Source: Vibrio aerogenes (GTDB lineage Bacteria; Pseudomonadota; Gammaproteobacteria; Enterobacterales; Vibrionaceae). Taken from it: a DNA stretch of 64,000 nt. Position numbers and translations under genes: made by a program. The DNA lies in the NCBI RefSeq assembly GCF_024346755.1, contig NZ_AP024861.1:62001-126000 (forward strand), given 5' to 3'. The notes beneath the pieces were generated by a model. The model saw only the letters and a program-made list of their open reading frames with translations. It did no database searches and was not told the DNA's origin. How positions within the stretch are numbered: the stretch's first letter is position 1; every line of letters begins with the position of its first letter. Of this stretch, positions 33,803 through 56,838 are shown in pieces.

Positions 33803-34208
33803 CTACCGATATTGCAGGCCGCCGTTCCAGCCTCGTAAAACTTCAAACACCTTATTTTTTTCAATGCAATTTGCTTTTGTTTTCATGTCATTGAAGCAGA
33901 GTAAGTCTGAGTCCTGATCGGTGCCGGTGTCTTTTCTGTAGCCGGAACCAATATCCCAAAGTGAGATCACATAGTTTCCATAGGCGTCAGGGACAGGGAT
34001 CTCATATTTTTTCTGTAAAGATGATTTATTTTCTTCCCACCATTTGATCTTGTTCCTGAATCTCAAGGGAAAATTTTTGACAACAATATTTGTCCAGATA
34101 CCTTGTTGATGCACTCCCATGATTTCAACTGGTCTCAGCCACAAGTAGCTGGAATAGGCTAACCCACAAGAAAGAACGATAATTATTACCCATAATTTTT
34201 TTATTCAT
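33803..34208 (-). pseudogene. DUF943 paralogue with a frameshift in a 7-A tract after the start
   Basis: The DUF943 core (LRPVEIMGVHQQGIWTNIVVKNFP to FEVLRGWNGGLQYR) is intact. The ATG at 34208-34206 overlaps the upstream stop (TAATG), and the first codons run into seven A. With six A the reading would be MNKKLWVIIIVLSCGLAYSS and continue SYLWLRPVEI, mirroring the membrane helix of the neighbour. With seven A the start is out of frame, leaving only a TTG at 34144 that lacks the helix. It may be phase variable, rescued by slippage, decayed, or a sequencing error. Confidence 0.75.
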
Positions 34209-35395: not shown

Positions 35396-35406
35396 ACATC
35401 CTCCGC

Positions 35407-42687: not shown

Positions 42688-43095
42688 ATGGAAGATAGTC
42701 AATTTCTTGAGGGAGGATGGAAATTTCCGCCTGTACGTTCCGGAGTTGCTCACCCGTTTCCGGAGGAAGACTGTGATGAACAGGATATTAACCAGTCCGT
42801 TGATACTGTATTACATTCATATTTGACTGAACGATGTATTCCGTTTTTAAATTGTGAATCCTACTATGCTTTTGATGATATCCGGGTCCGGAATGCAGTT
42901 TTAAAAGACGAAATAGCATTCTTTGTCCGGTGTGCTTTATTAAATTCTGAACCAAGAATCCATGTCAATGAAGTGCAGGTGATTTATTTTTCAGAGGCGG
43001 GTGCTATGGCCGATATCATGATTTGTTACACCATCAGGCAGACCAACAGCCAGCACCATCATCGATTCAGTTTTTCTTTTTCAGAACTGGCCTGA
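42688..43095 (+). CDS. Hypothetical protein, 135 residues
   Basis: No family recognised. The start is ATG 42688, which has CAGGAG 9 nt upstream; the longer frame from TTG 42616 lacks a comparable site. The product begins MEDSQFLEGGWKFPPVRSGV, is acidic, rich in Cys (CDEQ, RCIPFLNCES, RCALLN, ICY) and predicted mixed alpha/beta without signal peptide or membrane helix. Its last codons are part of a 20-bp tandem repeat. Neighbours give no clue to role. Confidence 0.65.
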   Translation: MEDSQFLEGGWKFPPVRSGVAHPFPEEDCDEQDINQSVDTVLHSYLTERCIPFLNCESYYAFDDIRVRNAVLKDEIAFFVRCALLNSEPRIHVNEVQVIYFSEAGAMADIMICYTIRQTNSQHHHRFSFSFSELA

Positions 43096-43137
43096 TATTT
43101 TCAGAACGGACCTGTTATTTTCAGCACGGACCTGATA
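43078..43137 (+). repeat. Three tandem 20-bp repeats across a gene's 3' end
   Basis: Units TTTTCAGAACTGGCCTGATA, TTTTCAGAACGGACCTGTTA and TTTTCAGCACGGACCTGATA follow without gaps. The first encodes the final FSELA-stop of the small gene, so the array grew out of its 3' end. Confidence 0.9.
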
Positions 43138-43182
43138 GCTCCTGCCATCTGTGTCTTGCTCAGAAACCCATCAATTCTTGCT

Positions 43183-43215
43183 GAACATGCATCTTGAGGT
43201 CATTCAGGTATAGCG
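43183..43215. repeat. Partial copy of the dispersed intergenic repeat
   Basis: GAACATGCATCTTGAGGTC followed by ATTCAGGTATA matches the core and right arm of the copy at 3179-3240. The left arm is missing. Confidence 0.5.
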
Positions 43216-43361
43216 TCATATAAATAACTGTCTGAAGCAGGTTGATATCGCCTGGATTGTGGCGACTCACACCGGGGCACTTCAGCTGTTTGTTTTATTA
43301 ATAAGAATAATATTAATAGAAGACTATAATTAATGCACAGACTCAGAAAGGAAGCAGATGA

Positions 43362-44345
43362 ATGTCAGGTCTTCATATGCTGAACCGTTATTTGGTGATT
43401 GCATTTCTGGTTTTCCCGTTCTTGTGTGGGCGCGCTTATGCTGATACCTATGGTTTGGTTGGAAAAAGTTTGAGTGATGCGGCACTCGTCGAAATCTGGC
43501 GGGGTTGCGAAGCGATGGCATCACGGAATGATGACCATTGTACTGCACTGGGTGCAACGGGAGATGGGCATCCGCGTTACCAAAAGCGTGTTTTAAGCGA
43601 AGCATTACAAAGTGACCGATTTAAAGGATTAGGCATTTCTGTCTCTCATTCTGACCTGATTGCGGAAGTATTAAAGACCAGTCCTCTGCCACTGATTACG
43701 ATTGATGTTCCTTTTAGTGACAAGGACAATCATTTAAGTATCGGGCATATTGGTGTAGATAATCTCGCTCTGGGAAAAGATCTGGCAAACGTCGTCAGGG
43801 AACTCCATCCCAAAGGCGGGAATATCTGCATTATGGCATCCTTTGGCTTGCACCGGGCACAAATGGAGGAGCGATTACTGGGGCTGAGGCGTGGATTAAG
43901 TGGAGAGAAGCTCGACAAAGGTGTTCGCCTCAATGGCCATCAGGGATGGCGTGAGGTTGCACGTTGCCCATGGAATAATGGCGAAAAAAGTGAGCGGGCG
44001 CTTACTCAGCTTGACTTCACCCTGAATCATCTGGATGTGGATGTTTTTGTTTCTATCGATAATTGGGTTATCGCTGATCCGAGAGCTTATCAAAAAGTTG
44101 TTGCACCTTACAAAGAGCGGATAGAAACGGGAAAAACTATCATGGTCTTATCCATTGGCGGGATGCGCTCAGAATACAGCAAGCTGCTCAGAACAAAGCT
44201 TGTTCACGGTTATCTGATGATCAATTACTTTCAGCTTGGGCAGGGAAGCTACACCTTAATGAAAGCCATGGCTTCCGGTGAATCCATCCCCCCCGTAACC
44301 TACATCAGAAATCATAAAACATATCTGGTGAAACCCGAAAATTAG
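43362..44345 (+). CDS. Periplasmic substrate-binding protein (sugar/autoinducer-binding type)
   Basis: 327 residues. A signal peptide (LNRYLVIAFLVFPFLCGRAYA) is cut near ADTYG. The mature part follows the type I periplasmic-binding fold of the Peripla_BP_4 group: TYGLVGKSLSDAALVEIWRGCEAMA, GLGISVSHSDLIAEVLKTSPLPLITIDVPF, HIGVDNLALGKDLANVV and GGNICIMASF. The start ATG 43362 has AGGAAG upstream. No ABC permease or ATPase adjoins, so it may feed a receptor kinase or chemoreceptor, as LuxP or TorT do. Ligand unknown. It ends ~230 bp before the peptide-operon promoter. Confidence 0.82.
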   Translation: MSGLHMLNRYLVIAFLVFPFLCGRAYADTYGLVGKSLSDAALVEIWRGCEAMASRNDDHCTALGATGDGHPRYQKRVLSEALQSDRFKGLGISVSHSDLIAEVLKTSPLPLITIDVPFSDKDNHLSIGHIGVDNLALGKDLANVVRELHPKGGNICIMASFGLHRAQMEERLLGLRRGLSGEKLDKGVRLNGHQGWREVARCPWNNGEKSERALTQLDFTLNHLDVDVFVSIDNWVIADPRAYQKVVAPYKERIETGKTIMVLSIGGMRSEYSKLLRTKLVHGYLMINYFQLGQGSYTLMKAMASGESIPPVTYIRNHKTYLVKPEN

Positions 44346-44572
44346 TCTGTGATTGCTGAGCTTATCACTCATATTGAGAATTTAAATTATTTATATTTTT
44401 GTTTTTAATTTCTTTTCTCATAATGTGTGACACATCTCTTAATTATATAATTATCTCTATATGTAATTGATTATTAATAAATATAACTAATGTGGTGTGT
44501 GTTTTTCTAAATACATGATAAAGATATTGTTATCATTATAATTCTGTTAAATTGTTTTAACATTTTATTTTC

Positions 44573-44601
44573 TTGACATTAACAATTTCTGATTGATAAA
44601 T
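44573..44601 (+). promoter_or_regulatory. Sigma-70 promoter of the peptide operon
   Basis: -35 TTGACA (44573-44578), a 17-bp spacer and -10 ATAAAT (44596-44601) in a very AT-rich region. A transcript starting near 44608 would have a ~87-nt leader before the precursor gene. Near-consensus, so expression could be strong. Confidence 0.7.
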
Positions 44602-44694
44602 TGATTTGTGCCTGTGATGCAATATCATGGCAAGACGGAAATGTTTTTTTATTTCTGTTAAATATAAAAAACAATATTCAAAAGGAAATTTATT

Positions 44695-44850
44695 ATGACT
44701 AAGTCTTTATTCTCAGTAAGCCGTAGTGTTCAAAAAAATGCAGCGAATGCAACTTTTTCAGTAAGCCGCAGTGTCCAGAAAAATGCAGCGAATGCAACTT
44801 TCTCTGTTGGCCGCAGTGTGCAAAAAAATGCATCAAATGCACATTTCTGA
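44695..44850 (+). CDS. Repeat-containing precursor peptide (candidate RiPP precursor), 51 residues
   Basis: ATG 44695 with AAGGAA 9 nt upstream. After MTKSL come three 15-residue units: FSVSRSVQKNAANAT, the same again, then FSVGRSVQKNASNAH and a final F. Units one and two differ at four bases, all synonymous; unit three has mostly synonymous changes too, so the peptide sequence is under selection. There is no Cys and almost no separate leader. It precedes a gene row with a DUF692/MNIO-like protein, exporter, flavoprotein and asparagine-synthetase homologue, as expected for a modified peptide. No known precursor family recognised. Function of the product unknown. Confidence 0.85.
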   Translation: MTKSLFSVSRSVQKNAANATFSVSRSVQKNAANATFSVGRSVQKNASNAHF

Positions 44851-44863
44851 TCTTTAAATTAAA

Positions 44864-44920
44864 CAGGTTCATATAAATGAATCTGTCCGGACAGATTGAA
44901 ATTATATTGATTCTGTCCGG
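44864..44920 (+). promoter_or_regulatory. Mutually exclusive hairpins after the precursor gene
   Basis: Stem A: CAGGTTCAT/ATGAATCTG (44864-44885). Stem B: perfect palindrome AATCTGTCCGGACAGATT (44880-44897), which overlaps A. Stem C: CCGGACAGA/TCTGTCCGG (44887-44920), which overlaps B. They lie between the precursor and the enzyme genes, so they may attenuate transcription or protect the short precursor mRNA. Confidence 0.7.
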
Positions 44921-45067
44921 ATGTTCTTACCCGCTTGTCGTTATTCAGATTATATAAATAAGAGTATCAACCTCTTAAATATAAGAATTACACAGATAAG
45001 GCAGTTGTTAGCCAGTAAAGAATATGCTGTGCAAAGCATCTGTCGGCGAAAAGGATAGATAAAGATC

Positions 45068-46006
45068 ATGCCATCTCAGTCCGCTATCGCGACCAATGAT
45101 CGCGAGTATGGTGATATTTACCACCAGGAAAGTTCCCGTACTGCCGGTTCGTATCCGGGTCAGCATTTTATCAGCAATCGGCGGCTCCGGATTCGTTCTG
45201 GTACTTCAGGTCTGAATGTTACCGATCATGCCGGAGACCTGAAAAAACCGGGGTATTTTCAGCAAGGCCAGCATTATCAGGACAATAAAACCGTTTTTGT
45301 CGAAGCCGTTGCACCGGATATCAACAGGATCCGCTACCGCTTCTATCAGGCGGTATCTGGTGTTCAGTGTTGTGATAAAACGAAGGAATGTTCGAATGCT
45401 GCCATTGCCGCATATCTTCACACCATTGAGTTCTGTAATGAACTAGATACCCGTTGTTACTGTGAACTCATCAATAGCCAGATAAACTCCCGGTGGTGGT
45501 TAAAAAAAGTATCAGATAATCATCAGGGTTGTCAGATTGAAATAGCGAAAAATATGACAGCAGATGTCATATATCATTATCAATACCTGACAGATGGCCT
45601 GAATTTATTATCACATAGATATTCTGCGGTAAAAATTGATAGTTTTAATCAATTGTTGATGGTTGATATTCATCTTTATATACAGAAAAAGCAGAGTATC
45701 GATTTATTGTGTGATGAAATGAAGCGTTTGTCATTGAAATATCCAGGATTTAAAGTGGTCGCTATTTCATTTAAGCAAAGTGAAATGAAATCTTTACTTT
45801 GTTTTAATGGTGAATTTCACCGTTCTTTTCCTGTCAGTAGTTTGTATTTGTTATGTTGCTACTTCAATTTTTACCATCCGGTAACGATGACGGGAGAATA
45901 TCAGTGTGCGAATTTAATGACCGGAGAAAAATTAATGTTTTCGGTGACAGAAATGGTGAGCGGTGAGCTGTTAATGGCGACCCGGGTTAATACACAAATA
46001 TTATAA
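45068..46006 (+). CDS. Unknown Cys-rich protein of the peptide operon
   Basis: 312 residues; no family recognised. The N-terminal ~90 residues are polar and Gly/Tyr-rich (SYPGQHFISNRRLRIRSGTSG). The middle has a dense Cys group (QCCDKTKEC, then FCNELDTRCYCEL) that might bind metal or form an Fe-S or zinc site; more Cys follow (LLCDE, LLCFNG, LLCCYF, YQCANL). No signal peptide or membrane helix. It starts ~215 bp after the precursor and ends 9 bp before the MNIO-like gene, so it is probably part of the modification machinery. Role unknown. Confidence 0.75.
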   Translation: MPSQSAIATNDREYGDIYHQESSRTAGSYPGQHFISNRRLRIRSGTSGLNVTDHAGDLKKPGYFQQGQHYQDNKTVFVEAVAPDINRIRYRFYQAVSGVQCCDKTKECSNAAIAAYLHTIEFCNELDTRCYCELINSQINSRWWLKKVSDNHQGCQIEIAKNMTADVIYHYQYLTDGLNLLSHRYSAVKIDSFNQLLMVDIHLYIQKKQSIDLLCDEMKRLSLKYPGFKVVAISFKQSEMKSLLCFNGEFHRSFPVSSLYLLCCYFNFYHPVTMTGEYQCANLMTGEKLMFSVTEMVSGELLMATRVNTQIL

Positions 46007-46015
46007 GGTGATCAA

Positions 46016-46843
46016 ATGCAGGGCGTTGGCTATTTTTTACATTTTCATCAGGATTACATTGATTTTGACCAGAAATTTGAAGCTTGTGGGGGACGTTCGG
46101 ATGCGTATGAAGTCCTGGCACTACATTTTAATACCGAAGTTGAAAATCTGGTTCGCTTTATTGGCCCTAAAAATAAGCCGGTCTGTTTACATACAGCGGT
46201 CATGGATCTGGGACAAGACAGTACGTCTGAACGTCCGGGGTTGAAGATGCTGCAGGAACAGGTTGCAGCTGTTCAGCCTTATTCTGTTACGGAGCATCAT
46301 GCGGTACTTAAATCTCCGGGGGGTGATGAATTCGGTATATTTTTCCCGCCCCCAGAGCTGCCCGCTCAGAAGCAGGTTATATCAGGACATTTAAAGGCGC
46401 TGGATCAGAATTTGAATACCAAAGTTTTGGTTGAAAACCCGATTTTTTCTTATGAGCTGAAAGGGAATCAGGCGAAACGACGGGTTGAATTTTTTAATGA
46501 AACAGTTCGTGAATCCGGCTGTAAGATGCATTTGAGTTTGTCGAATATTGCTTACAGTAATAGTTACGGTGCCAGAATCGATCCGGATGAGTATTTGGCG
46601 CACATTGACCTCAGTTTAGTCGAACAGATCCACCTGTATGTGAATAATCAGGCGCAGATGAAATCCGCCCCTAAATCTTATACAGAAAGTGAAAAGTGGT
46701 TGAAAACAAGTCTGGAACAGTTATTGAAACATCATGACGTGAAGCCGCTGATCTTTTTTGAACTGGAAGCCAGAACACCAGCACTGGCAGAGCCTGAATT
46801 CTTACGTGATTCGATGGACTGGGCGCGCAGTCTTCTTGCGTGA
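46016..46843 (+). CDS. Divergent DUF692/MNIO-like TIM-barrel protein
   Basis: 275 residues. The order of motifs follows multinuclear non-haem iron oxidases (DUF692): GVGYFLHFH, PVCLHTAVMDLG, YSVTEHHAV, KVLVENPIFSYEL, FFNETVRESGCKMHLSLSNIAYSN, VEQIHLYV and PLIFFELEA. Several normal metal-ligand positions differ: the usual LLDxNN reads LSLSNI, and the HLAGH...DTH region reads HLYVNN without a DTH. It may therefore hold fewer irons or be a non-catalytic scaffold. Known members oxidise Cys, Asp or Asn residues of precursor peptides. AAGGTGAT precedes the ATG. Confidence 0.65.
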   Translation: MQGVGYFLHFHQDYIDFDQKFEACGGRSDAYEVLALHFNTEVENLVRFIGPKNKPVCLHTAVMDLGQDSTSERPGLKMLQEQVAAVQPYSVTEHHAVLKSPGGDEFGIFFPPPELPAQKQVISGHLKALDQNLNTKVLVENPIFSYELKGNQAKRRVEFFNETVRESGCKMHLSLSNIAYSNSYGARIDPDEYLAHIDLSLVEQIHLYVNNQAQMKSAPKSYTESEKWLKTSLEQLLKHHDVKPLIFFELEARTPALAEPEFLRDSMDWARSLLA

Positions 46844-46878
46844 TCAGCAATAAAACAACGATTAAAGGAGAAAGAATC

Positions 46879-47685
46879 ATGTTAGCAGATGTACAAAATG
46901 TCATGGCTCGTCTGGTTAGGGATCATCGTTTTTGCCAGCAATTTTGTGAGCAGGGGATCGACTGTCTGGATGGTTATGCTTTAACCGAAGAAGAACTCAA
47001 CTATCTGGCGGATATTGAACCAGAGAGTATGACCGTATTGGGGGACTTTGTCGGTACAGAAAGAATTCACCGGCGAGAAGGTGAGTTTGGCTTATTTGTG
47101 ACGGAATTATCCCGTTATATGGATTATGAACCCCTGGCCCGGAAATTTTCTCAGCAGTATTGTCAGGGTTCTTTAGCGAAGCTGTTGGATGCCCGAAATT
47201 ACTATGAATTCTTTACCGGGATCCTGTTTCAATATGAGGTTCCGTCTTATCTCAGTGACCTTCTGTATTTTTGTTACCAGAACACCCGGATTTGCTGGGT
47301 CAACTATAACCCGCCAGCTGAACATTATATTGAACAGTGGCATGTGGAAGATAAAATCAGTTTGACTGATCACTATACGACGATCCTGGTTTCGCGTGAG
47401 TTTTGCCGTTTTATGGAAATCGATGGTTTTGCTCACGATGAATCTGAGAGTGAAGTGACTGTGACGCTGCTGTTAGTGAAGCATCCCGATATTCCCAAGA
47501 GTTCATCTTATGCTGTGGTTGAGCCGGATTCTCTGCTTGAGTTTTTACTGGAGCAGAAAGAAGCGACCGCACTGACATTGGTTGAACGGTTTGGAATGAA
47601 GCGGCTGAAAAGTGGGATCGGCTATATTAATCATAAAATCGAACAAGGGTTTATCCGCTATCTGCCTGCGGAGACTCACTCATGA
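46879..47685 (+). CDS. Putative MNIO partner / peptide-recognition protein
   Basis: 268 residues from ATG 46879, which has AAAGGAG upstream; the longer frame from GTG 46840 has no such site. The N-terminus (LADVQNVMARLVRDHRFCQQFCEQG, then GYALTEEELNYLADI) is helical and resembles the short domain found in MNIO partner proteins and Nif11-like leaders. The C-terminal part (~200-260: VVEPDSLLEFLLEQ, KSGIGYINHKIEQGFIRYL) has a winged-helix look that could be a leader-binding element. Its stop overlaps the MFS start by 4 bp. Partner role is inferred from position and N-terminal pattern. Confidence 0.55.
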   Translation: MLADVQNVMARLVRDHRFCQQFCEQGIDCLDGYALTEEELNYLADIEPESMTVLGDFVGTERIHRREGEFGLFVTELSRYMDYEPLARKFSQQYCQGSLAKLLDARNYYEFFTGILFQYEVPSYLSDLLYFCYQNTRICWVNYNPPAEHYIEQWHVEDKISLTDHYTTILVSREFCRFMEIDGFAHDESESEVTVTLLLVKHPDIPKSSSYAVVEPDSLLEFLLEQKEATALTLVERFGMKRLKSGIGYINHKIEQGFIRYLPAETHS

Positions 47686-48905
47686 ATATCCGGGATAAAA
47701 ATCTCAAAGCATTATTACCATCGGTGATGGTTTCATCGATGGGGGACTGGATTTTTCATGTCGCTTTATTGCTGTATCTGTTCCGGGGAACGCAGTCTGG
47801 AGTGATTGTCAGCCTGTTTATCCTGTCGTCTACGCTGCCTTCATTATTGCTATCCCCTTTGATTGTTAAAAAAATCAGCCATTTTGCGAATCGTACCACA
47901 CTGGTTAGTGCAGACTTATTGCGTATGGTTTTAGTCGCATCTCTGGTGTTATTTCAGGATGCAATGACAGCCGTATTTATTGTGAATGCCTTTCTTGGTG
48001 TAGTCAGTGTTGCCTTTCGTTCTGCGTATATCCGCAAGATTACCGATCTCTATGAACCAGACCAGCGTCATCAGGTGAATGCGCTGCTCAACAGTGGTTC
48101 TTACATTGCGATGGGATTGGGTTCCGTTGCCGGGGCCGCCCTGATCAGCCAGTGGTCATTAAGCGTATGTTTGTGGATTGATGCTGCCAGTTTTCTGCTC
48201 TCTGCCCTGTTTCTTTACAATTTACAAGCCGATGCTGAGGGCGGGGAAAAGGAGCAGAAGCAGTCGCCAACGCTCAAACTCATGCTTTCTGCTCTGGTAA
48301 CAGAAGTGAAAGGCAGCGTTGTGCTTTCTTCTGTATTAGCTTTTGGTTTGAGCTGGGGGATTGTTGGGGGCGCTTTCAGTGTGTTATTCCCGGTGTTGTT
48401 TATGACTCAGGCTGAAAGTTCCGGATTACTCAGTACTTTCTATACGGTTCAGGCACTGGCTTTGCTGGCCGGAAGCTTTATTGTTTACAAAACAAAGTTT
48501 AAGGAAAACGAGAACTATCTCTTCAGGCTGTTTCTCTTCGCCTATTTCTGTCAGGCTTTCTGCTTTTCCCTGGCATTATTCACTGACAATATTTATCTGA
48601 GCTTTATTGCAATTTATTTTATGAGGTTATGTGGCGGCATTATTATCCCGCTTGATACCACGCTGATTCAGAATAACAGCTCTGAGGAATCACTACCGCT
48701 GATCTACAACATTCATGGTTTGACTTATAACTCTTGTTATCAGTTTACCGTACTGGCCGTCGGCATCATGATTGATTCGCTACAGCTGAGTACAACCAAA
48801 GCGATTGCCGGCTGGACAGCAATTGTGACCATATCGACGATTTGTCTGGTTTCATTGGTTTTAAACAGCCGGCGTGGTGTGGCGAATACGACGGAGTCGG
48901 GTTGA
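47682..48905 (+). CDS. MFS transporter, probable exporter of the peptide product
   Basis: 407 residues with about 11-12 membrane helices. The N-terminal SVMVSSMGDWIFHVALLLYLFRG and the DLLRMVLVASLVLFQ segment are typical of MFS_3/enterobactin-exporter (EntS)-like proteins. It overlaps the previous gene by 4 bp and is followed after one base by the flavoprotein. In this operon its obvious role is export of, or self-resistance to, the modified peptide; inferred. Confidence 0.85.
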   Translation: MNIRDKNLKALLPSVMVSSMGDWIFHVALLLYLFRGTQSGVIVSLFILSSTLPSLLLSPLIVKKISHFANRTTLVSADLLRMVLVASLVLFQDAMTAVFIVNAFLGVVSVAFRSAYIRKITDLYEPDQRHQVNALLNSGSYIAMGLGSVAGAALISQWSLSVCLWIDAASFLLSALFLYNLQADAEGGEKEQKQSPTLKLMLSALVTEVKGSVVLSSVLAFGLSWGIVGGAFSVLFPVLFMTQAESSGLLSTFYTVQALALLAGSFIVYKTKFKENENYLFRLFLFAYFCQAFCFSLALFTDNIYLSFIAIYFMRLCGGIIIPLDTTLIQNNSSEESLPLIYNIHGLTYNSCYQFTVLAVGIMIDSLQLSTTKAIAGWTAIVTISTICLVSLVLNSRRGVANTTESG

Positions 48906-48906
48906 T

Positions 48907-50028
48907 ATGAATCGTGCAGAAAACATGTTAATTGAACTGGTCCGGCAAAATAGTGATACATCCTCATTGGCCCTGATTGATACTGTTCTTGGATGTACCC
49001 GGCTGGCGCATATTGATGCGATGCGTGATTATCCGGTCCAGGCTGTTGAAGATTTAAACCGTAAGGCCAGTGCTTCGCTGTTGTTAGTACCAGAGAGGCT
49101 GGGCGGCTCTGCCGCTGAACTGAAAACAGCGGCTGTATTGTTGCCCTGTCTGGCTTATCGTTCAGTGAATGTTGCCGCTTTGTATATGTTTCATTATCAG
49201 TGTACCGCCCGGATGAATACCTGTGCGAATGAGGCACTCTACCGGCAACAACTTGATGCTTTAGTTACTGATGCCGGCCTGATGTCCTCGGCATGGAGTG
49301 AAGGTGAGGCGAACCCGGCAATGGTCCATCGGGTGAACAACTCAGCCTGCCTGTATTTGTCCGGAGATAAGTATATTTCAACCGGTGTTGCTGAATCCTG
49401 TTTGACGCATGTGATCGTCCGGGATCCGGAATATGGGGGACAATCATTTGTCATTGTTCCACAGCCCGCTCAACAGCAGCAGATTCGTTTAAAACCTTTA
49501 TCTTTGATTAGTTTCAGGGCAGCACAGAACAGTGCGATTCATTTTGACAATCTGGCCATTGATCACCAGATGTTTCTCGGGGAGCGTGGCTGTGCAGACA
49601 TATTGCAAAAGCAAAACCATGAGAATGGTTTGAATCCTGGCTTGTTGGCTTTAGGGTTGCTGGCCAGATTCATTGACCTGCTGAAAAGTCAGTTCGATTA
49701 TATTTGTAAACAGTCTGCATACACACGGATAACTGCGAAATATCGACAGTTAGTCACTTCTCTGAGTCAGGCGTTGCAGTCCGGGAACTATTTCAGTCTG
49801 GCTTTTGGTCTGACATTCAAATACCGCGCAACGGCTTTGTTACGGGATAGTATTCTGGCTCTGAGTCCTTTCTTTGGTCCATCGGTTCTGATGGAGAATC
49901 ATCCCGTCAATGTCGTCATGCAACATGGTTTACTACTGCAATACATGGGGCCGGCAAATTACCAGATAGAGAGCCGGCTGGATGAGCAGTTATTTTCTGA
50001 TTGCAGTTTTGATGTGACGTTTCTGTAA
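48907..50028 (+). CDS. Acyl-CoA-dehydrogenase-like flavoprotein
   Basis: 373 residues from ATG 48907. The N-terminal helical domain includes ASLLLVPERLGGSAAEL; the beta domain includes YLSGDKYISTGVAESCLTHVIVRDPEYGG and FDNLAIDHQMFLGERGC; a C-terminal helical bundle follows. This is the ACAD fold, which binds FAD and removes two hydrogens. The usual catalytic Glu near the C-terminus is not evident to me. In RiPP and NRPS pathways such enzymes dehydrogenate or decarboxylate carrier- or peptide-bound residues; which one applies here is unknown. Confidence 0.78.
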   Translation: MNRAENMLIELVRQNSDTSSLALIDTVLGCTRLAHIDAMRDYPVQAVEDLNRKASASLLLVPERLGGSAAELKTAAVLLPCLAYRSVNVAALYMFHYQCTARMNTCANEALYRQQLDALVTDAGLMSSAWSEGEANPAMVHRVNNSACLYLSGDKYISTGVAESCLTHVIVRDPEYGGQSFVIVPQPAQQQQIRLKPLSLISFRAAQNSAIHFDNLAIDHQMFLGERGCADILQKQNHENGLNPGLLALGLLARFIDLLKSQFDYICKQSAYTRITAKYRQLVTSLSQALQSGNYFSLAFGLTFKYRATALLRDSILALSPFFGPSVLMENHPVNVVMQHGLLLQYMGPANYQIESRLDEQLFSDCSFDVTFL

Positions 50029-50042
50029 ACTGGAGGTTGTTT

Positions 50043-51755
50043 ATGTGCGGAATAGCAGGATACCTGCGACTGAATGCTGCCAGTCCGGCAGTCAGTCAGG
50101 CTCAGATTCAGATTTTACGGGAAAGCATTGCTGCCCGTGGTCCGGATGAAACGATGGAATGTATTGATGAACATCAGGGATTATTTTTCAGCAGACTTGC
50201 CATTACCGGCAGCCCGGGGAATGCAAGGCAACCCTTTCAGGACGGGAAAAGTTTTTTGTTATTTAACGGGGAAATTTATAACTACCGGGAACTGGCAGTC
50301 GCCGAATTGAATATGCCTCTGGCGGCGGATCGCTGCGATGGGGAGGTCATTTTACCCCTGTTTCACCGGTATGGGATGGCGGGAACGCTCTCCCGGCTAA
50401 ACGGGCCTTTTGCGCTGGCCTGGTTTCGCCCGGATGGGATGATGCTGGCAAGAGATTCTGTCGGGAAAAAGCCGCTCTATTATTTGTGTCAGGACGAGAC
50501 GTTGTTCTTCTCATCTGATATTACCGGATTAATGAAAATTAAGCATGAAATCGATCTTGATCCCTACGCGGTAGGTGATTATTTCATATTTAAATCAGCT
50601 GGTGTAAAAAGCAGCCTGATTAACGGCATTTCTGAAGTCCCTCCCGGATATTTCCTGTGGGTCAATCATGGACGCTACCAGCCGGAACTGTGCCGGTTTT
50701 TTGCAGAAACGGATGTGAATCCGGACAGTGAGATTACCCCGGAAGAGCTGATTACATCCCTGAACCAGTCAATTCAGCTCCGCTCTGTGAATGATAAACC
50801 CATTGCCTCTTTATTGAGTGGCGGGCTGGATTCTTCGATTATTAATTATCTGCTGCAACAGCAGGAGCAGACTTTCCGGGCGTATACGATCGGCAGTAAT
50901 GATGTGGACGACCCATTGGATGAAATCCCGCTGGCCACTGAATTTGCGGAAGATAACCGGATCAACCACCAGTCTTTGCTGCTGAAAACTGAAGCGGTTC
51001 CGGAGCTGTTGGAAGCTTCAGTGATTGCCATGGAACAACCGGTCCAGGATCCGATTATTGTCAACTCTCTGGCTTTGGCCCGGCATATAGGTCGGGAGCA
51101 CAGGGTGCTGTTAACAGGAGATGGTGCCGATGAGCTCTGGCTGGGGTACGATCGGTTCAGAACCTTTGCAGAATGTGGTGTTGAAGACTATCTGCAGGCA
51201 CTGTCTTTATTCCGGCCCGAGTCATTACACCTGCCAGATTATCATCCGGAGCATTACTTCGGTGTCTCTCCTTACGGCCGGGATCTGGCGTCCTTAGCCG
51301 AACTGGAGCGTTCGATCCGGTTTAAAAATTACCACCTGACCCGGATGGATCGGATATTTATGAAAAACGGACTGGAAACCCGCAGCCCGTTTTTAGATAC
51401 CAATCATATCCGGCTATGTGCCCGTTTGAGTGCAACCCGTAAGTTTTTTCAGGGGAAAGGGAAATGGGCACTCCGGTTAGCTTTTTCCGGAACGCTGGGA
51501 CAGCGTATTTGTTTTCGTAAAAAGCAGCCGTTTACTTTTCCGCTGCATTATTTTCGTCAGCCGGAATTTTTTGATTACTTTACCTCGCCACTCAATGACC
51601 GTCAGTCGATTGTCCATGACTATGTGGATTTAAGTGAACTGACCGGCAAAGTATCGAGGGGTGTTGGACTGAATGAATCCGATTACCACAAAATCTGGTC
51701 GGTGAAGGTATTTGAACTCTGGCATCGCCGGGTTTACAGAGGATGTTTATCATGA
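50043..51755 (+). CDS. Asparagine synthetase (glutamine-hydrolysing) homologue
   Basis: 570 residues from ATG 50043 behind GGAGG. An N-terminal class II glutaminase domain with nucleophile Cys2 (MCGIAGYLRL), ARGPDE, FNGEIYNY and RDSVGKKPLYY, then the synthetase domain with the PPi-loop SLLSGGLDSSIINYLL and LLTGDGADELWLGYDRF. All key motifs are present, so it can probably amidate an acid using glutamine. In a peptide operon it may amidate a side chain or C-terminus, or form a ring, rather than make free asparagine; inferred from context. Confidence 0.85.
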   Translation: MCGIAGYLRLNAASPAVSQAQIQILRESIAARGPDETMECIDEHQGLFFSRLAITGSPGNARQPFQDGKSFLLFNGEIYNYRELAVAELNMPLAADRCDGEVILPLFHRYGMAGTLSRLNGPFALAWFRPDGMMLARDSVGKKPLYYLCQDETLFFSSDITGLMKIKHEIDLDPYAVGDYFIFKSAGVKSSLINGISEVPPGYFLWVNHGRYQPELCRFFAETDVNPDSEITPEELITSLNQSIQLRSVNDKPIASLLSGGLDSSIINYLLQQQEQTFRAYTIGSNDVDDPLDEIPLATEFAEDNRINHQSLLLKTEAVPELLEASVIAMEQPVQDPIIVNSLALARHIGREHRVLLTGDGADELWLGYDRFRTFAECGVEDYLQALSLFRPESLHLPDYHPEHYFGVSPYGRDLASLAELERSIRFKNYHLTRMDRIFMKNGLETRSPFLDTNHIRLCARLSATRKFFQGKGKWALRLAFSGTLGQRICFRKKQPFTFPLHYFRQPEFFDYFTSPLNDRQSIVHDYVDLSELTGKVSRGVGLNESDYHKIWSVKVFELWHRRVYRGCLS

Positions 51756-52594
51756 ATGGATTCCGGTATCTGGATGAGGTTGCCACAATGGCTGTGCCTC
51801 ATATCTATTTTGCTCTCAATATTGAGGACAGTACGCCATCTGGCCTGGGGCATGGATTCACAGGCGTGAAGTTTGATCCGGATTATAAAAACCACAGCTG
51901 GCGGATGTATGGCTTGCAGGAAGGCATGTTTAACCTGCTTGAGATGTTCAGGCATCATCAGGTGCCTCTGGCGTTACTGATTAATTCTGATTTTGTGGAA
52001 AAGTATCCGGCGTTGGTTGTCCGGCTCAGGGAATATCAGAACGTTGAAGTGATTGGTCATGGTCAGACGAATACGGATTATTTTCACCAGCTGGATTTTG
52101 CTCAGCAGGTTGAGTACAGCCGACACGTCAAAGATGTTCTGGAATCCGGATTGAAGTTGCCGGTCAAAGGTTGGCTGTCACCCTGGATTAACGGGAATGA
52201 ACAAACGATTCCGGCACTCTTTGAAGCCGGTTATACGTACACACTGGATCGATCGGTCTCTGACTTTGTTGGTGAATTTCAACAAGGAGGCGCCCGGCTG
52301 GCTGCTGTCCCCTATAATATTGAGGTGAATGACACGCCATCTTTATGTGCTAAAAGTTTGTCTAACCAAGATTATTTTCAGTCAATTATCGACTATATCG
52401 ACGGTCTCAGGTTTCTTGCCCGGACCGATGCGGCGCCTGTCGCCGCATTTCCTTTGCACACGCCGGTCGCCGGTAGACCACATCGTCTGGTGTATCTTGA
52501 TTCCGTGCTGTCAAAGTTAAAACAGCGGGAATCTGATGGTGAACTGGTTCTTTCGACACCGGGTGCGATTTTATCCGGCTTCCGGCAGCAATAG
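51752..52594 (+). CDS. NodB-like polysaccharide-deacetylase-family hydrolase
   Basis: 280 residues from ATG 51752, overlapping the previous stop by 4 bp, with GAGGA upstream. The fold follows carbohydrate esterase 4 / PuuE-like proteins: YFALNIEDSTPSG, QEGMFNLLEMFRHHQVPLALLINSDFVEKYP, NVEVIGHGQTN, GWLSPWINGN and TLDRSVSDF. The catalytic DD/HxxxH set is altered (IEDS; GHGQTN lacks the second His), so chemistry is uncertain. Last gene of the peptide operon; might hydrolyse an amide of the product. No signal peptide. Confidence 0.72.
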   Translation: MNGFRYLDEVATMAVPHIYFALNIEDSTPSGLGHGFTGVKFDPDYKNHSWRMYGLQEGMFNLLEMFRHHQVPLALLINSDFVEKYPALVVRLREYQNVEVIGHGQTNTDYFHQLDFAQQVEYSRHVKDVLESGLKLPVKGWLSPWINGNEQTIPALFEAGYTYTLDRSVSDFVGEFQQGGARLAAVPYNIEVNDTPSLCAKSLSNQDYFQSIIDYIDGLRFLARTDAAPVAAFPLHTPVAGRPHRLVYLDSVLSKLKQRESDGELVLSTPGAILSGFRQQ

Positions 52595-52612
52595 CCAGTG
52601 ACAGAAGTCAGC

Positions 52613-52635
52613 CAGAGATGGGTTGACTTCTTTTT
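52613..52635 (+). terminator. Terminator of the peptide operon
   Basis: Perfect 8-bp stem AGAAGTCA / TGACTTCT with a 3-nt loop and TTTTC tail, 19 nt after the last gene. Confidence 0.72.
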
Positions 52636-52694
52636 CATCATCCTTTAGCATCCGCGCCAACTTTTCATCAACTTCACTGTGGAGGACACAAATT

Positions 52695-52785
52695 ATGCTG
52701 ACAATTTCGATTTCCTTTGCAGATCTTACCGACATCAAATAGCAGAACACTGCTTTCTCTGTTCTGCCTGTCCGGCAGATCTGCC
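52695..52785 (+). promoter_or_regulatory. Possible leader peptide and hairpins before rtcB2
   Basis: A 15-codon frame (MLTISISFADLTDIK, 52695-52742) has a strong GGAGG site 8 nt upstream. Its stop abuts a perfect 8-bp hairpin GCAGAACA/TGTTCTGC (52742-52767), and a perfect GGCAGATCTGCC palindrome follows at 52774-52785. This looks like a translated attenuator leader; no experimental support. Confidence 0.45.
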
Positions 52786-52916
52786 AATATCGATCCGATA
52801 ACTTTTTAAATTCAGATAAGTCTTCAGGGCTGTTTTGGTTCTGATTCCGTTTGTTTATCTGTGATTGTTTGAGTTTTCCGGATCACACATCTGAACTAAA
52901 TGTTTACAGGAAAAAG

Positions 52917-54080
52917 ATGATGGGCAATATCATCCGGACAATTTCTGAACGGGCCACCCTGATCGCATCAGAAGCGACGTGGATTGAAGGGCTGGCGATT
53001 GAACAACTGAACAAAACAGCACAACTGCCGGATATGGTGGCAGTCGCCGGTATGCCGGATTTACATCCGGGCCGGGGCTATCCGGTGGGCGCTGCATTTT
53101 TTAGCCGGAAGCGAATTTATCCGGCACTGGTGGGGAACGATATTGGCTGCGGCATGGGGTTATGGCAAACCAGCCTGAAGGTTAACAAATTTAACCCGGA
53201 AAAAATTGAAAAGCGGCTGAATGGCGTGACATCTCCTTTACCGGCATCGTGGCACCCCTATATTCAGTCCAGACAGCAGGCGCTGAATATCAACCCCGGC
53301 AGCTTTGATGTTTCACTGGGAACGATTGGCGGCGGGAATCACTTTTCGGAATTTCAACAGCTTGACGAAGTGTATTGTGAGGCGACCGTTGCGGCGCTGG
53401 GGATGAACCCGAAGCAGCTCCAGTTGCTGGTGCATTCCGGCTCGCGTGGTTTGGGGCAGCAAATACTGATGGCGCATATTCGCCGTTATAACCATGATGG
53501 GATAGCCGAGTCCGGTGCAGGATTTGCGGATTATTTACAGCAACATGATGAAGCGGTGCGCTGGGCAGTTCTGAACCGGGAACTCATTGCTTTGCGGTTT
53601 CTGGATGCGGTGCGGGGCGAGGCTGAACTGGTATTGGATGTGACACATAATCTGGTGTCTCCGGCACAATTCCAGGGTGTGTCCGGTTGGATTCACCGTA
53701 AAGGTGCGACACCGGCTGATCAGGGTGTTGTGGTCATTCCAGGTTCCCGCGGGGATTACACTTATCTGGTTAAACCGACGACCAATGAGGCCGGACTTCT
53801 TTCGTTGGCACATGGTGCCGGGAGAAAATGGAAACGGGGAGATTGTCAGAGCAGGCTCAGTCACAAATATCGTCAGAGCGACTTACAGCGAACCTCACTG
53901 GGCAGCCGGGTCGTCTGTAAAGACAAAACCCTGCTGTATGATGAAGCGCCACAGGCGTATAAGAAATGTGAATCGGTGATCAGTGATTTGGAAAATGCGG
54001 GTCTGATTACCCGGCTGGCACGGCTGAAGCCGGTCCTGACATTTAAAACGGATGGTGGAGACGGAGGAAAACAGCAATGA
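52917..54080 (+). CDS. rtcB2: RtcB-family RNA ligase, RtcB2 type
   Basis: About 387 residues. Starts at ATG 52917 or 52920, with CAGGA just upstream. RtcB signatures: VAGMPDLHPGRGYPVGAAFF, GNDIGCGMG, LGTIGGGNHFSEFQ, LLVHSGSRGLGQQ and the guanylylated-His region SLAHGAGRKWKRGDC. RtcB joins 2',3'-cyclic-phosphate (or 3'-phosphate) and 5'-OH RNA ends using GTP and Mn2+. This shorter form overlaps prfH by 4 bp; the RtcB2-PrfH pair is known to repair 16S rRNA broken in the decoding centre. Distinct from the canonical RtcB at 62847. Confidence 0.92.
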   Translation: MMGNIIRTISERATLIASEATWIEGLAIEQLNKTAQLPDMVAVAGMPDLHPGRGYPVGAAFFSRKRIYPALVGNDIGCGMGLWQTSLKVNKFNPEKIEKRLNGVTSPLPASWHPYIQSRQQALNINPGSFDVSLGTIGGGNHFSEFQQLDEVYCEATVAALGMNPKQLQLLVHSGSRGLGQQILMAHIRRYNHDGIAESGAGFADYLQQHDEAVRWAVLNRELIALRFLDAVRGEAELVLDVTHNLVSPAQFQGVSGWIHRKGATPADQGVVVIPGSRGDYTYLVKPTTNEAGLLSLAHGAGRKWKRGDCQSRLSHKYRQSDLQRTSLGSRVVCKDKTLLYDEAPQAYKKCESVISDLENAGLITRLARLKPVLTFKTDGGDGGKQQ

Positions 54081-54697
54081 TTTTACTGCAACTCTCCGCT
54101 GGCCGGGGGCCGCTGGAATGCTGTCTGGCCGTTGGTCTTGCACTACAACAACTGGAAATACAGTGCCATGAGTCTGGTGTACGCAGCCAGATTATCGAGA
54201 CGGAACCTGCCGGGAAAAATGGTTGTTTTCACTCCGTGCTGGTTGAACTGGCTGGGGATAACAGCCCGCACATTGCGAAAAACTGGCAGGGCAATATGCT
54301 GTGGATTGCTCCCAGCCCCTTCCGGCCAAAACATCCACGTAAAAACTGGTTTTTCAGTGGGCAGGTGTTTAGACCGGATGAACAACAATACCGGGAAAAT
54401 GAGATACGTTTTCAGACCTGCCGGGCTTCCGGAGCGGGTGGACAACATGTCAACACCACAGAGTCTGCGGTCCGGGCAATACATATTGCATCGGGTATCA
54501 GTGTTCGGGTTGAAACCGAACGAAGCCAGCATGCCAATAAACGATTGGCAAAATTATTACTGATGCAGAAATTACAGGTTGCCGAAGCGCAGAAGATAAA
54601 ACAGCAGTACAAAGCGCGCTGGCAGCAACACCATGCTCTGGAACGGGGTAACCCGGTCCGGACATTTGTAGGAAAAGATTTTCGTTTAAAGAAGTGA
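54077..54697 (+). CDS. prfH: Peptide chain release factor-like protein PrfH
   Basis: 206 residues, class I release-factor fold without a stop-codon recognition domain. The peptidyl-hydrolysis motif is present as SGAGGQHVNTTESAVRA (GGQ), followed by SVRVETERSQHANKRLAKLLL and a basic RF-type C-terminus. Start overlaps rtcB2 (ATGA), so the two are coupled. PrfH releases peptides from ribosomes stalled by cleavage of the decoding centre, so that RtcB2 can reseal the rRNA. Confidence 0.92.
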   Translation: MILLQLSAGRGPLECCLAVGLALQQLEIQCHESGVRSQIIETEPAGKNGCFHSVLVELAGDNSPHIAKNWQGNMLWIAPSPFRPKHPRKNWFFSGQVFRPDEQQYRENEIRFQTCRASGAGGQHVNTTESAVRAIHIASGISVRVETERSQHANKRLAKLLLMQKLQVAEAQKIKQQYKARWQQHHALERGNPVRTFVGKDFRLKK

Positions 54698-54767
54698 TAT
54701 CAGTTACATTCAATCATTGATTGGAAAATAAACTGAATCGGTATCAATTAAGAAACAAAACAAAAGA

Positions 54768-54783
54768 GGACAGCGTTATGTAA
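54768..54783 (+). promoter_or_regulatory. Start-stop element (ATG-TAA) with a good ribosome site
   Basis: GAGGA lies 8 nt before ATG at 54778, and the next codon is TAA. Ribosomes would initiate and meet a stop at once. It is in the 200-nt gap between prfH and the RNA ligase gene, which otherwise holds only an ATGCTGT/ACAGCAT hairpin at 54842-54866. It may tune downstream translation or sense release; speculative. Confidence 0.4.
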
Positions 54784-54896
54784 TTCCATCATCACACAGC
54801 GGTTGAAGGCGTTTGGCACCTGATGAACAGGCTGTCGCGTCATGCTGTGTTGATTCATGACAGCATTTAAAGATGAATCAATGAAAAGAGGAACAG

Positions 54897-55541
54897 ATGA
54901 TGAGAATGAAATACCCGAGAACACCCCATTTACCATGGTCCCGCGGGGCAACTGATGATGATGTGTTTCAGCGTCGGTTGAGTTGCTTCAGTGGAAAAGA
55001 AGTGATCGTCACAGAAAAAATGGACGGTGAAAATACCACAATTTATCCGGATTACATTCATGCCCGCTCGATGGATAGCTTGTTCCATCCTTCCCGGACC
55101 TGGGTGAAAGCATTGCAGGGCAGAATTGGCTGGCAAATTCCGGATGGCTGGCGGGTTTGCGGTGAAAATATGTATGCGAAACACTCAATTGCCTATCATG
55201 ACTTAGCGAGTTATTTTCTGGCTTTTTCCGTCTGGGATCAGAATAACCTGTGTCTGAGCTGGTCTGAGAGTGTTAAATTTTTTGAGCGGTTAGGTCTGAA
55301 AACACCACCGGTTTTGTATCAGGGCTTTTGGTGTGAAGCCACGATCCGTGAGATTCAGCAACGTCTGGATACCCAAACTCAGGAAGGTTATGTCGTCCGG
55401 CTGGCGGATGCATTTCATTATGATGATTTTAGCCAGAGTGTTGCAAAATGGGTCCGGCGCAATCATGTCTCGACCGGAGAACATTGGATGAAAGCGGAGA
55501 CAGTGCCGAACCTGCTGGCAGGAGATGAACGGGATGCGTGA
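54897..55541 (+). CDS. ATP-dependent RNA ligase (T4 Rnl / nucleotidyltransferase superfamily)
   Basis: 214 residues, a minimal ligase. Motif I with the adenylated Lys is VTEKMDGENTTIYPD, the RSMDSLFHPSR segment is typical of small bacterial RNA ligases, motif III is YFLAFSVWD, motif IV EGYVVRL and motif V VAKWVRR. Start ATG 54897 (or 54900) behind AGAGGAA. It joins 3'-OH and 5'-phosphate RNA ends. Its gene overlaps the kinase/HD gene, which would supply exactly those ends. Confidence 0.88.
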   Translation: MMRMKYPRTPHLPWSRGATDDDVFQRRLSCFSGKEVIVTEKMDGENTTIYPDYIHARSMDSLFHPSRTWVKALQGRIGWQIPDGWRVCGENMYAKHSIAYHDLASYFLAFSVWDQNNLCLSWSESVKFFERLGLKTPPVLYQGFWCEATIREIQQRLDTQTQEGYVVRLADAFHYDDFSQSVAKWVRRNHVSTGEHWMKAETVPNLLAGDERDA

Positions 55542-56838
55542 ACTGAAATTATGGCTTGATGCGCTGGCTGCCGGTGCGACGCCGGATTTTGAAGAATGTT
55601 TGTCCCGGCTGGGCGGTTTTTTCCCGTGGCTGGAACGTTTTGCTGATACACCGCAGGAGCCGGAATGGCACGGTGAAGGCAATGTTGCGATTCATACGTC
55701 GATGGTAATGGAAGCTTTATATCAGTTACTTGAAGGACCAGCGCAACATATTTGTGGCAGCAAGCGGCAAGCACTGATTCTGGCAGCATTACTGCATGAT
55801 ATCGCTAAACCTGTCACGACACGGATAAAGCTGATTCGTGGTGTGGAACGGCTTGCTGCAACAGGGCATGAGGAACAGGGAGCCAGTTATCTGGCTCCCC
55901 GGTTGATGGCTTTGCCGCTGGATTATCCGGTGGTGGCGATGATTCTTGGGCTGGTCGGGTTTCATCAGGTTCCCAAGTTGCTGGTGGTGAGAAATCAGGG
56001 CTACAGTTGTTACCTGCATCTGGCCCTGAATGTGGACCTGGAACTGATGTACTGGCTGGAGCGGGCAGATATGCAGGGGCGGGTGTGTGCCGATCAGGCA
56101 GAACAACTGGATATGCTGGCGCAGTTTGCCCTGTTTGCGCAAGAATATGGACTGTGGCAGGTTGCGAATCCGCGCACGCAGATTCTGCCGGCCGTTCAGG
56201 TGAAAAATACGCCACGCGAGCAAGTCTATCTCGATAACTATGCGGTGGCTGAACTGGCTGGTGCTGACATTGTGATGGCTGAAGAAGCCATCGCCCGGAC
56301 TTACCGGGCTGCATCTGTTTATGGACATCTGTATGTGATGTGCGGTATCAGCGGCAGTGGAAAATCAAGCTGGATACAAAAATATCTGGCTGATTATCAT
56401 CTCATTTCACTGGATGAAATCCGGGCGGAAGTTCATGGTGATCGCAGTTGCCAGAAGGATCCGGGACGGATTGTTCATTTAGCTCGGGACCGGCTGAAAG
56501 CGGCACTGGCGAAACGGCGAAATATCGTCTGGGATGCCACCAACCTCCGGCTGGATTACCGGAAAGTTTTATGTGATTTGGGACGGGATTACGGTGCGTT
56601 GGTGACATTGGTTGTGTTTCATCTTCAGATTCCCAACCTGAAAGCCAACGACAGAAGCCGCCGGTTTACTGTGGGAGGTGATGTGATTGATGAACAGGTA
56701 AACAGCCTGCAATGGCCGGCAATCACCGAAGCTCACCGGATGATCATCGTGGGTGATAAAGGCAGAACGCTGGCCCGCTTTGGCAGCTTTCAGACGGGAG
56801 AGCCCGGAGAACAAACAGAGGAAAAAAGCAGCGTGTGA
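55534..56838 (+). CDS. HD-Pnk: HD phosphoesterase fused to polynucleotide kinase
   Basis: 434 residues from ATG 55534 (GGAG 9 nt upstream; an ATG at 55525 is too close). The N-terminal HD domain has His54 in NVAIHTSMV and LHDIAKP (His88-Asp89). The C-terminal P-loop kinase starts VMCGISGSGKSSW (~268-280), then HLISLDEIRAEVHGD and VWDATNLRLDYRK. In the HD-Pnk family the HD half removes 2',3'-cyclic phosphates and the kinase phosphorylates 5'-OH ends. It thus heals ends for the adjacent RNA ligase. Overlaps that gene by 8 bp. Confidence 0.9.
   Translation: MRELKLWLDALAAGATPDFEECLSRLGGFFPWLERFADTPQEPEWHGEGNVAIHTSMVMEALYQLLEGPAQHICGSKRQALILAALLHDIAKPVTTRIKLIRGVERLAATGHEEQGASYLAPRLMALPLDYPVVAMILGLVGFHQVPKLLVVRNQGYSCYLHLALNVDLELMYWLERADMQGRVCADQAEQLDMLAQFALFAQEYGLWQVANPRTQILPAVQVKNTPREQVYLDNYAVAELAGADIVMAEEAIARTYRAASVYGHLYVMCGISGSGKSSWIQKYLADYHLISLDEIRAEVHGDRSCQKDPGRIVHLARDRLKAALAKRRNIVWDATNLRLDYRKVLCDLGRDYGALVTLVVFHLQIPNLKANDRSRRFTVGGDVIDEQVNSLQWPAITEAHRMIIVGDKGRTLARFGSFQTGEPGEQTEEKSSV

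Follow-up and report, generated by a model that had tools for sequence, protein, structure and literature searches.

Closest described systems

Among described routes to ribosomally synthesised and post-translationally modified peptides (RiPPs), the nearest to the one discussed here is the nitrilobacillin (pes) cluster, which yields the nitrilotides (PMC13060819). In nitrilobacillin biosynthesis an MNIO, its partner protein and an asparagine-synthetase-like (AS-like) enzyme act together. How does the operon described here compare? It occupies positions 44695-52594, on the plus strand, of a window of 64,000 nucleotides, the whole stretch of Vibrio aerogenes DNA analysed. Its eight genes encode, in order, a repeat peptide, a protein that we call X, an MNIO, a probable partner, a major facilitator superfamily (MFS) transporter, an acyl-CoA-dehydrogenase-like (ACAD-like) protein, an AS-like enzyme and a PuuE/NodB-like hydrolase. 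We put at about 0.7 the probability that it makes a multicore, Cys-free RiPP by the route proposed below; the RiPP class is probably new.

The two systems share an MNIO, a partner (in the window a probable one) and an AS-like enzyme in one cluster, and a short, Cys-free target motif. In both, the MNIO lacks the Fe3 HxD motif and the AS-like enzyme has a catalytic Glu-Tyr pair. They differ in the precursor, which in nitrilobacillin has one core and a C-terminal R(V/T)DN, whereas that of the window has three putative cores. The pseudo-MNIO PesX, an alpha-ketoglutarate HExxH enzyme and M16 peptidases belong to the nitrilobacillin cluster only. The predicted DapF-fold protein (X), the ACAD-like protein, the PuuE-like hydrolase and the MFS exporter belong to the window only, which has no peptidase.

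With the aminopyruvatides (ApyH), pearlins (TglH) and biphenomycin-like peptides (PMC12452194) the operon shares an MNIO, a precursor without signal peptide and a partner without DUF2063, the probable partner of the window being possibly of PME-type 2. Their other tailoring enzymes and their precursors differ from ours, and the MNIO scores far below the ApyH equivalog cut-off of 400 bits (19.6 in the window, 28.7 for its Photorhabdus ortholog). By score the nearest MNIO subfamily is that of the bufferin/HvfB-type systems, though at 68.6 bits for BufB (cut-off 310) and 40.6 bits for HvfB (cut-off 360) the window protein again falls far short; moreover, the precursors of bufferins are rich in Cys and undergo secretion (PMC12452194), whereas the window precursor has no Cys. 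Judged by title or the start of the abstract, no pathway with this gene combination or MNIO clade is described in the open-access literature, among the matches listed. To that extent an earlier preliminary description of this stretch was right in knowing of no such pathway; it had not named the close precedent of nitrilobacillin. The features, all on the plus strand, are as follows.

44573..44602, +, promoter-like site TTGACA-18-TAAATT, which includes the 13-mer TTGACATTAACAA (motif scan)
44695..44850, +, precursor gene, 51 aa, no Cys, three 15-residue repeats (open reading frame (ORF) and repeat analysis)
44710..44754, +, repeat 1, FSVSRSVQKN + AANAT (tandem 45-nt unit)
44755..44799, +, repeat 2, FSVSRSVQKN + AANAT (tandem 45-nt unit)
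44800..44844, +, repeat 3, FSVGRSVQKN + ASNAH, then a final F (tandem 45-nt unit)
44886..44921, +, inverted repeat between precursor and X, no T run after it (repeat and folding analysis)
45068..46006, +, protein X, 312 aa, predicted DapF/PhzF/PrpF fold (structure model and sequence motifs)
46016..46843, +, MNIO (PF05114), 275 aa, altered iron-ligand set (Pfam and alignment)
46879..47685, +, probable MNIO partner, 268 aa, N-terminal Os1348-like stretch (profile matches and model)
47682..48905, +, MFS transporter, 407 aa, probable exporter (family profiles)
48907..50028, +, remote ACAD-like protein, 373 aa (profiles below cut-off)
50043..51755, +, AS-like glutamine amidotransferase, 570 aa (TIGR01536 and motifs)
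51752..52594, +, PuuE/NodB-like hydrolase, 280 aa (profiles and PDB match)
52603..52638, +, terminator-like hairpin with T tail (sequence scan)

Conservation of the precursor and of the operon

As the preliminary description had it, the repeat peptide is free of Cys. At the nucleotide level, units 2 and 3 are 91% and 80% identical to unit 1, and all four codon differences between units 1 and 2 are synonymous. What has been kept of this peptide elsewhere? Genome contigs, when scanned, yielded a single locus (L021), from Photorhabdus sp. CRCIA-P01, with all eight genes in identical order. Its precursor also has 51 residues with three 15-residue units, and is 57% identical to that of the window. 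Over the six repeats of both species, eight of the ten columns of the decamer FSV[SAG]RSV[QD]KN are invariant (F1, S2, V3, R5, S6, V7, K9 and N10), position 4 being S, G or A and position 8 Q or D. None of the five linker columns (11-15) is invariant; all six linkers are five residues long. Between the species the decamers show 12 synonymous codon changes (3 + 3 + 6) and three non-synonymous ones (1 + 1 + 1), the linkers no synonymous change and 15 non-synonymous ones (5 + 5 + 5). Judged from its codons, the decamer is under selection at the amino-acid level.

When the whole Photorhabdus genome was searched with the window precursor, the operon copy alone was found (E 3.9e-10), a second row being the identical place on the opposite strand, with stops. 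At E<=1 each of the two genomes holds one copy. A small precursor gene kept beside genes for tailoring enzymes is the mark of a RiPP cluster, and by sequence the locus bears it, in the window and in one other genome only. The preliminary description had suggested a search for the gene order elsewhere; precursor and seven further genes proved syntenic in this one additional genome, so that the co-occurrence, whose absence it had named as a refutation, exists. Its proposal of a candidate new class of RiPP operon is supported by the full synteny with a conserved precursor, within the same limit.

Identities between window and L021 are 34% for X, 72% for the MNIO, 44% for the partner, 50% for the MFS protein, 47% for the ACAD-like protein, 49% for the AS-like enzyme and 58% for the hydrolase; the flanking genes appear different. 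The Photorhabdus operon has a guanine-plus-cytosine content of 35% and its flanks one of 44-46%, a difference suggesting that the operon arrived there from outside. The window operon, at 45.4% against 44.5% for the window, does not stand out. A protein search with the MNIO returned three close orthologs, in Photorhabdus sp. RM323S (72%), in Candidatus Sororendozoicomonas aggregata (65%) and in a metagenome record (66%). Sororendozoicomonas is reported to be associated with a coral (PMC10833068).

The operon is rare. Of 394 genomes sampled from the order and 227 from the genus (E<=1e-30), its own alone gave a full-length ortholog, and likewise of 369 from the class (E<=1e-11), where the other 16 matching genomes cover part of the query at 45-50.3 bits. 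Among 12 genomes of the L021 genus and 392 of the L021 family (E<=1e-20), that of L021 alone was positive. Some genomes belong to more than one of these samples. When 61 relatives were searched with the single sequence (E<=0.001), 42 genomes matched, 41 of them only partially, at 22-31% identity. Protein searches with X and the partner (about 5.8 billion proteins) returned only the window's own proteins. An orphan operon, which this might suggest, was rejected once the MNIO search had revealed orthologs of X (34%) and partner (44%) in Photorhabdus; they were probably missed for having too few exact words in common with the query. Viral contigs gave no relative of the MNIO, and plasmids no match to the partner, the ACAD-like protein or the Photorhabdus X. 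Plasmid matches to the MNIO (32%), AS-like enzyme (31%) and hydrolase (34%) were distant, these being the identities of the best rows.

The proteins, signals and neighbours of the operon

The assignment of a DUF692/MNIO-like protein in the preliminary description holds: against a PF05114 cut-off of 25 bits the window protein scores 67.9 and the Photorhabdus ortholog 63.1. Where does it depart from its family? In TglH, Fe1 and Fe2 are bound by H71, H107, E151, D184, H216 and E258, and Fe3 by D184, N187, D229 and H231 (PMC10880893). We aligned a clade of five MNIOs, those of the window, L021, Photorhabdus sp. RM323S (P0005), Ca. S. aggregata (P0006) and the metagenome record (P0007), with 39 MNIO-family ORFs from relatives' loci, all those that reached E<=1e-3 and 200 aa once the own-operon, L021/L022 and RtcB loci had been excluded. 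These comparators are by appearance mostly of the common UPF0276/bufferin type. Positions were mapped to the TglH ligands by motif, TglH itself lying outside the alignment, as do PesH and PflD.

H59, H94, E140, N177, H206 and E249 are kept in all five clade members, and none of them varies among the 39 comparators; the clade has an insertion of two residues ahead of E249 in the alignment. Five of the six Fe1/Fe2 ligand positions are thereby kept and the full TglH set is not: at the position of the bridging Asp all five have Ser (Ser174) where all 39 comparators have Asp. The Fe3 Asp/His pair (D229 and H231 of TglH) is also missing from the clade, while the Fe3 Asp is present in 38 of the 39. 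With five of six ligands kept, the window protein is a member of the Pfam family rather than a demonstrated iron enzyme. The Fe3 motif is missing too from two active enzymes, the Asp beta-hydroxylases PesH and PflD, and the nitrilobacillin study calls the role of Fe3 "elusive" (PMC13060819). The invariant His172 was considered as a substitute ligand for the lost Asp and rejected, since 3bww, a solved DUF692 structure, has His there together with the Asp. Among the distant matches, one locus (L035, G742:C31:11615-12073) has a 568-aa open frame with an MNIO domain, about twice the usual length and a possible fusion.

Protein X, with 12 Cys in 312 aa, is indeed the Cys-rich protein of the preliminary description, which had called it unknown; we replace that word by a predicted DapF-type fold, spanning residues 36-310 in a model of moderate confidence. 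By this prediction X has the overall fold of the DapF/PhzF/PrpF/proline racemase superfamily, and it shares a Cys motif in the N-terminal half: the first catalytic Cys is kept (Cys108, in ECSNAA). It differs in that the second is replaced, in FPVSSL, and that position is apparently lost, so that X would not have the two catalytic Cys of diaminopimelate-type two-base epimerases. The Cys positions were judged by eye against the genome's own DapF. Nor does X resemble the superfamily in sequence, the family libraries giving no match, or in setting, an MNIO operon. Profiles of X and the partner found nothing below E 0.1 among PDB sequences, and PHROGs has no family for either. The Photorhabdus X is 27 aa shorter, and the true start of X may lie downstream of 45068. 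Among the matches listed, the open-access literature showed no RiPP tailoring enzyme with a DapF fold.

The 268-aa protein is a probable MNIO partner; neither it nor its Photorhabdus counterpart has a Pfam match to DUF2063, the sign of a PME-type 1 partner. The AS-like enzyme, a homologue of asparagine synthetase as previously described, scores 294.3 bits against TIGR01536 (290.7 in Photorhabdus; cut-off 267.1) and keeps the Cys2 nucleophile, the ATP-binding motif SGGLDSS and the pair E364-Y369. In the PesC study the corresponding Glu363-Tyr368 occurs in nitrile- and amide-forming enzymes alike (PMC13060819), so the pair cannot tell amide from nitrile. That study mentions about 300 uncharacterised AS-like candidates in RiPP contexts. 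The ACAD-like flavoprotein and NodB-like hydrolase of the preliminary description are relatives of those families only remotely, at 24.0 bits against 33.3 for PF02770 and 17.9 against 23.1 for PF01522. An alignment of the former with the genome's FadE-like protein was uninterpretable. The hydrolase is closest in the PDB to PuuE (3cl6, E 2e-10); its score against the PuuE equivalog (41.8 bits, and 54.6 for the ortholog) is far below the cut-off of 424.6. By sequence it is a relative of PuuE outside the equivalog. The genes around a PuuE-like relative on a Polaromonas plasmid offered no hint of function, and PADLOC has no family for six of the operon proteins.

ORFs and profiles bear out the eight genes, their place and strand, and a unit running from a promoter-like site to a terminator-like hairpin. 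Both signals are there, as claimed, the hairpin with its T tail at 52603-52631; the promoter match is at chance level, the scanned stretch having 17 such sites where shuffles lead one to expect 16.8, so a TTGACA-type match by itself proves nothing. The exact 13-mer TTGACATTAACAA at 44573 recurs once upstream of the Photorhabdus precursor (8677 in L021), 137 nt from its ATG against 122 nt in the window, and may be a promoter or regulator site kept in both. Between precursor and X lie 217 bp; from X onward the gaps are 9, 35, -4, 1, 14 and -4 bp. The "several" 4-bp overlaps of the preliminary description are real but number two of six junctions (partner/MFS and AS/hydrolase), a count that follows from taking ATG 46879 as the partner start; conserved in Photorhabdus, it is most likely the true one, rather than GTG 46840. 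The RNA 44848-44960 is more stably folded than its shuffled versions (z -3.7, 1 of 200 as good), as is the matching interval of L021 (z -3.1, 1 of 200), whose hairpin is unrelated in sequence; the window's inverted repeat is a possible transcript-processing or attenuation hairpin. Rfam at its gathering threshold gave no match in 43000-54000, and a tRNA search of 38000-60000 found none.

Directly downstream (52851-56838, plus strand) lies an RNA-repair-like run of RtcB, an RF-1-domain protein that we take to be PrfH-like, an RNA ligase and an HD/AAA_33 protein. Among 19 genomes of the genus RtcB was found in 1, that of the window itself, and among 12 others in 3, so that the neighbourhood is patchy too. 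Just upstream (43362-44345, plus strand) is a periplasmic binding protein (Peripla_BP_4), presumably TorT-like. At 34208-37284, on the minus strand, a VgrG-like protein (Phage_GPD, Phage_base_V and Gp5 trimer domains) adjoins a DUF3289 protein, an arrangement like that of type VI secretion effector loci.

The proposed route and its alternatives

What might the operon make? We infer the reactions, their order and the product as follows. The 51-aa peptide would very probably be the substrate, and three FSV[SAG]RSV[QD]KN decamers, rather than the disposable five-residue linkers between them, would probably be its cores. The partner would present the peptide to the MNIO, which would oxidise a C-H bond in one of the conserved residues of the core. 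The likeliest outcome, at roughly even odds, is simple hydroxylation, since the Fe3 pair is absent as in PesH and PflD. With its first Cys only, X might then abstract an alpha-proton by a one-base mechanism, leading to elimination of the new hydroxyl or to isomerisation and not to two-base racemisation; we suggest this tentatively, and are equally hesitant in assigning to the ACAD-like protein a flavin redox reaction at the resulting C-C bond. A protease from outside the operon would cut the linkers. The glutamine-dependent AS-like enzyme could then amidate the freed carboxylate, a step to which we give a little less than an even chance; that it carries the carboxylate on to the nitrile, as PesC does, is unlikely. 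Amidation and flavin chemistry were likewise supposed in the preliminary description, the flavoprotein being a weak assignment. A last C-N cleavage would fall to the PuuE-like hydrolase, and export to the MFS protein.

Taken as a whole, this would be a new RiPP class, in which a three-core, Cys-free precursor, an MNIO clade with altered iron site (neither bridging Asp nor Fe3 pair), a one-base DapF-fold enzyme, an AS-like enzyme and a flavoprotein yield a decapeptide with alpha/beta modification and a C-terminal amide or nitrile, or something smaller, by chemistry undescribed for RiPPs. The cluster would move between genera, namely the window's, Photorhabdus and, by the MNIO alone, a genus of Endozoicomonadaceae symbionts. 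So complete a picture has somewhat less than an even chance of being right.

Several observations weigh against the proposed route. The whole operon is known from two genomes only, and P0005, P0006 and P0007 are known here from the MNIO protein alone. The model of X has a mean pLDDT of 58, with TM-scores of 0.36-0.52 among the matches listed, and that of the partner is poor (pLDDT 46). The ACAD-like protein misses the Pfam cut-off for PF02771 (13.0 against 22.9 bits) as well as that for PF02770, and at E<=1 Pfam gives no acyl-CoA-dehydrogenase match for the Photorhabdus ortholog. The operon has no protease gene. The two C-termini, NASNAHF in the window and NILKSKI in Photorhabdus, are not conserved, which makes it unlikely that any enzyme works on the C-terminus before processing; neither has R(V/T)DN. 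Finally, exchange D184A made TglH insoluble (PMC10880893), and this is the Asp that the clade lacks.

Could the peptide play another part? Its layout might be the reverse of ours, the decamer being a repeated recognition sequence and the variable pentapeptide the core. In some multicore RiPPs, the cyanobactins for example, recognition sequences are conserved and cores variable, and the linker length is indeed constant in six of six repeats. Yet the residue is the same in both species at 0 of 15 linker positions, which leaves dedicated enzymes without a common target, and the linkers have no reactive residue in common; we consider this layout improbable. Just as improbable is a peptide that only carries a small molecule, as with 3-thiaglutamate in the pearlins, the exported product being smaller than the decapeptide. 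The operon's exporter is an MFS protein, a family that moves small molecules more often than peptides, and DapF- and PuuE-type folds are mostly known from small-molecule enzymes. A single attachment residue, however, needs fewer than the eight invariant residues that span the decamer, and family profiles find no pearlin-type tRNA-dependent ligase among the eight genes. The repeat ORF might also have arisen by chance, or be translated as a regulatory leader, before an ordinary metabolic operon; this would fit its shortness, its upstream place and the hairpins after it in both genomes. But its sequence, length, repeat number and place are conserved between genera while its codons diverge, and judged by synteny this reading is nearly refuted.

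The MNIO-like protein might, on the other hand, have no working iron cluster and regulate the partner as PesX does, leaving the chemistry to the AS-like enzyme, X and the flavoprotein. The change of bridging Asp to Ser in all five members, the missing Fe3 Asp/His and the precedent of PesX in the nitrilobacillin cluster (PMC13060819) speak for such a pseudoenzyme. We give it only a small chance: the MNIO is the best conserved of the operon proteins, at 72% against 34-58% for the other seven, and the six residues H59 to E249 listed above are kept in 5 of 5. Moreover PesX sits beside a second, active MNIO, and the window operon has no second MNIO gene.

We prefer a multicore RiPP whose decamers would be modified by an active MNIO. 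Its conserved decamer shows experimenters which peptide to seek. A DapF-fold tailoring enzyme would, if confirmed, add a catalytic fold to the RiPP field. For the MNIO family, whose chemistry is not yet predictable from sequence, a natural clade that lacks the bridging Asp and the Fe3 pair while strictly keeping five ligands makes the purpose of each iron directly testable.

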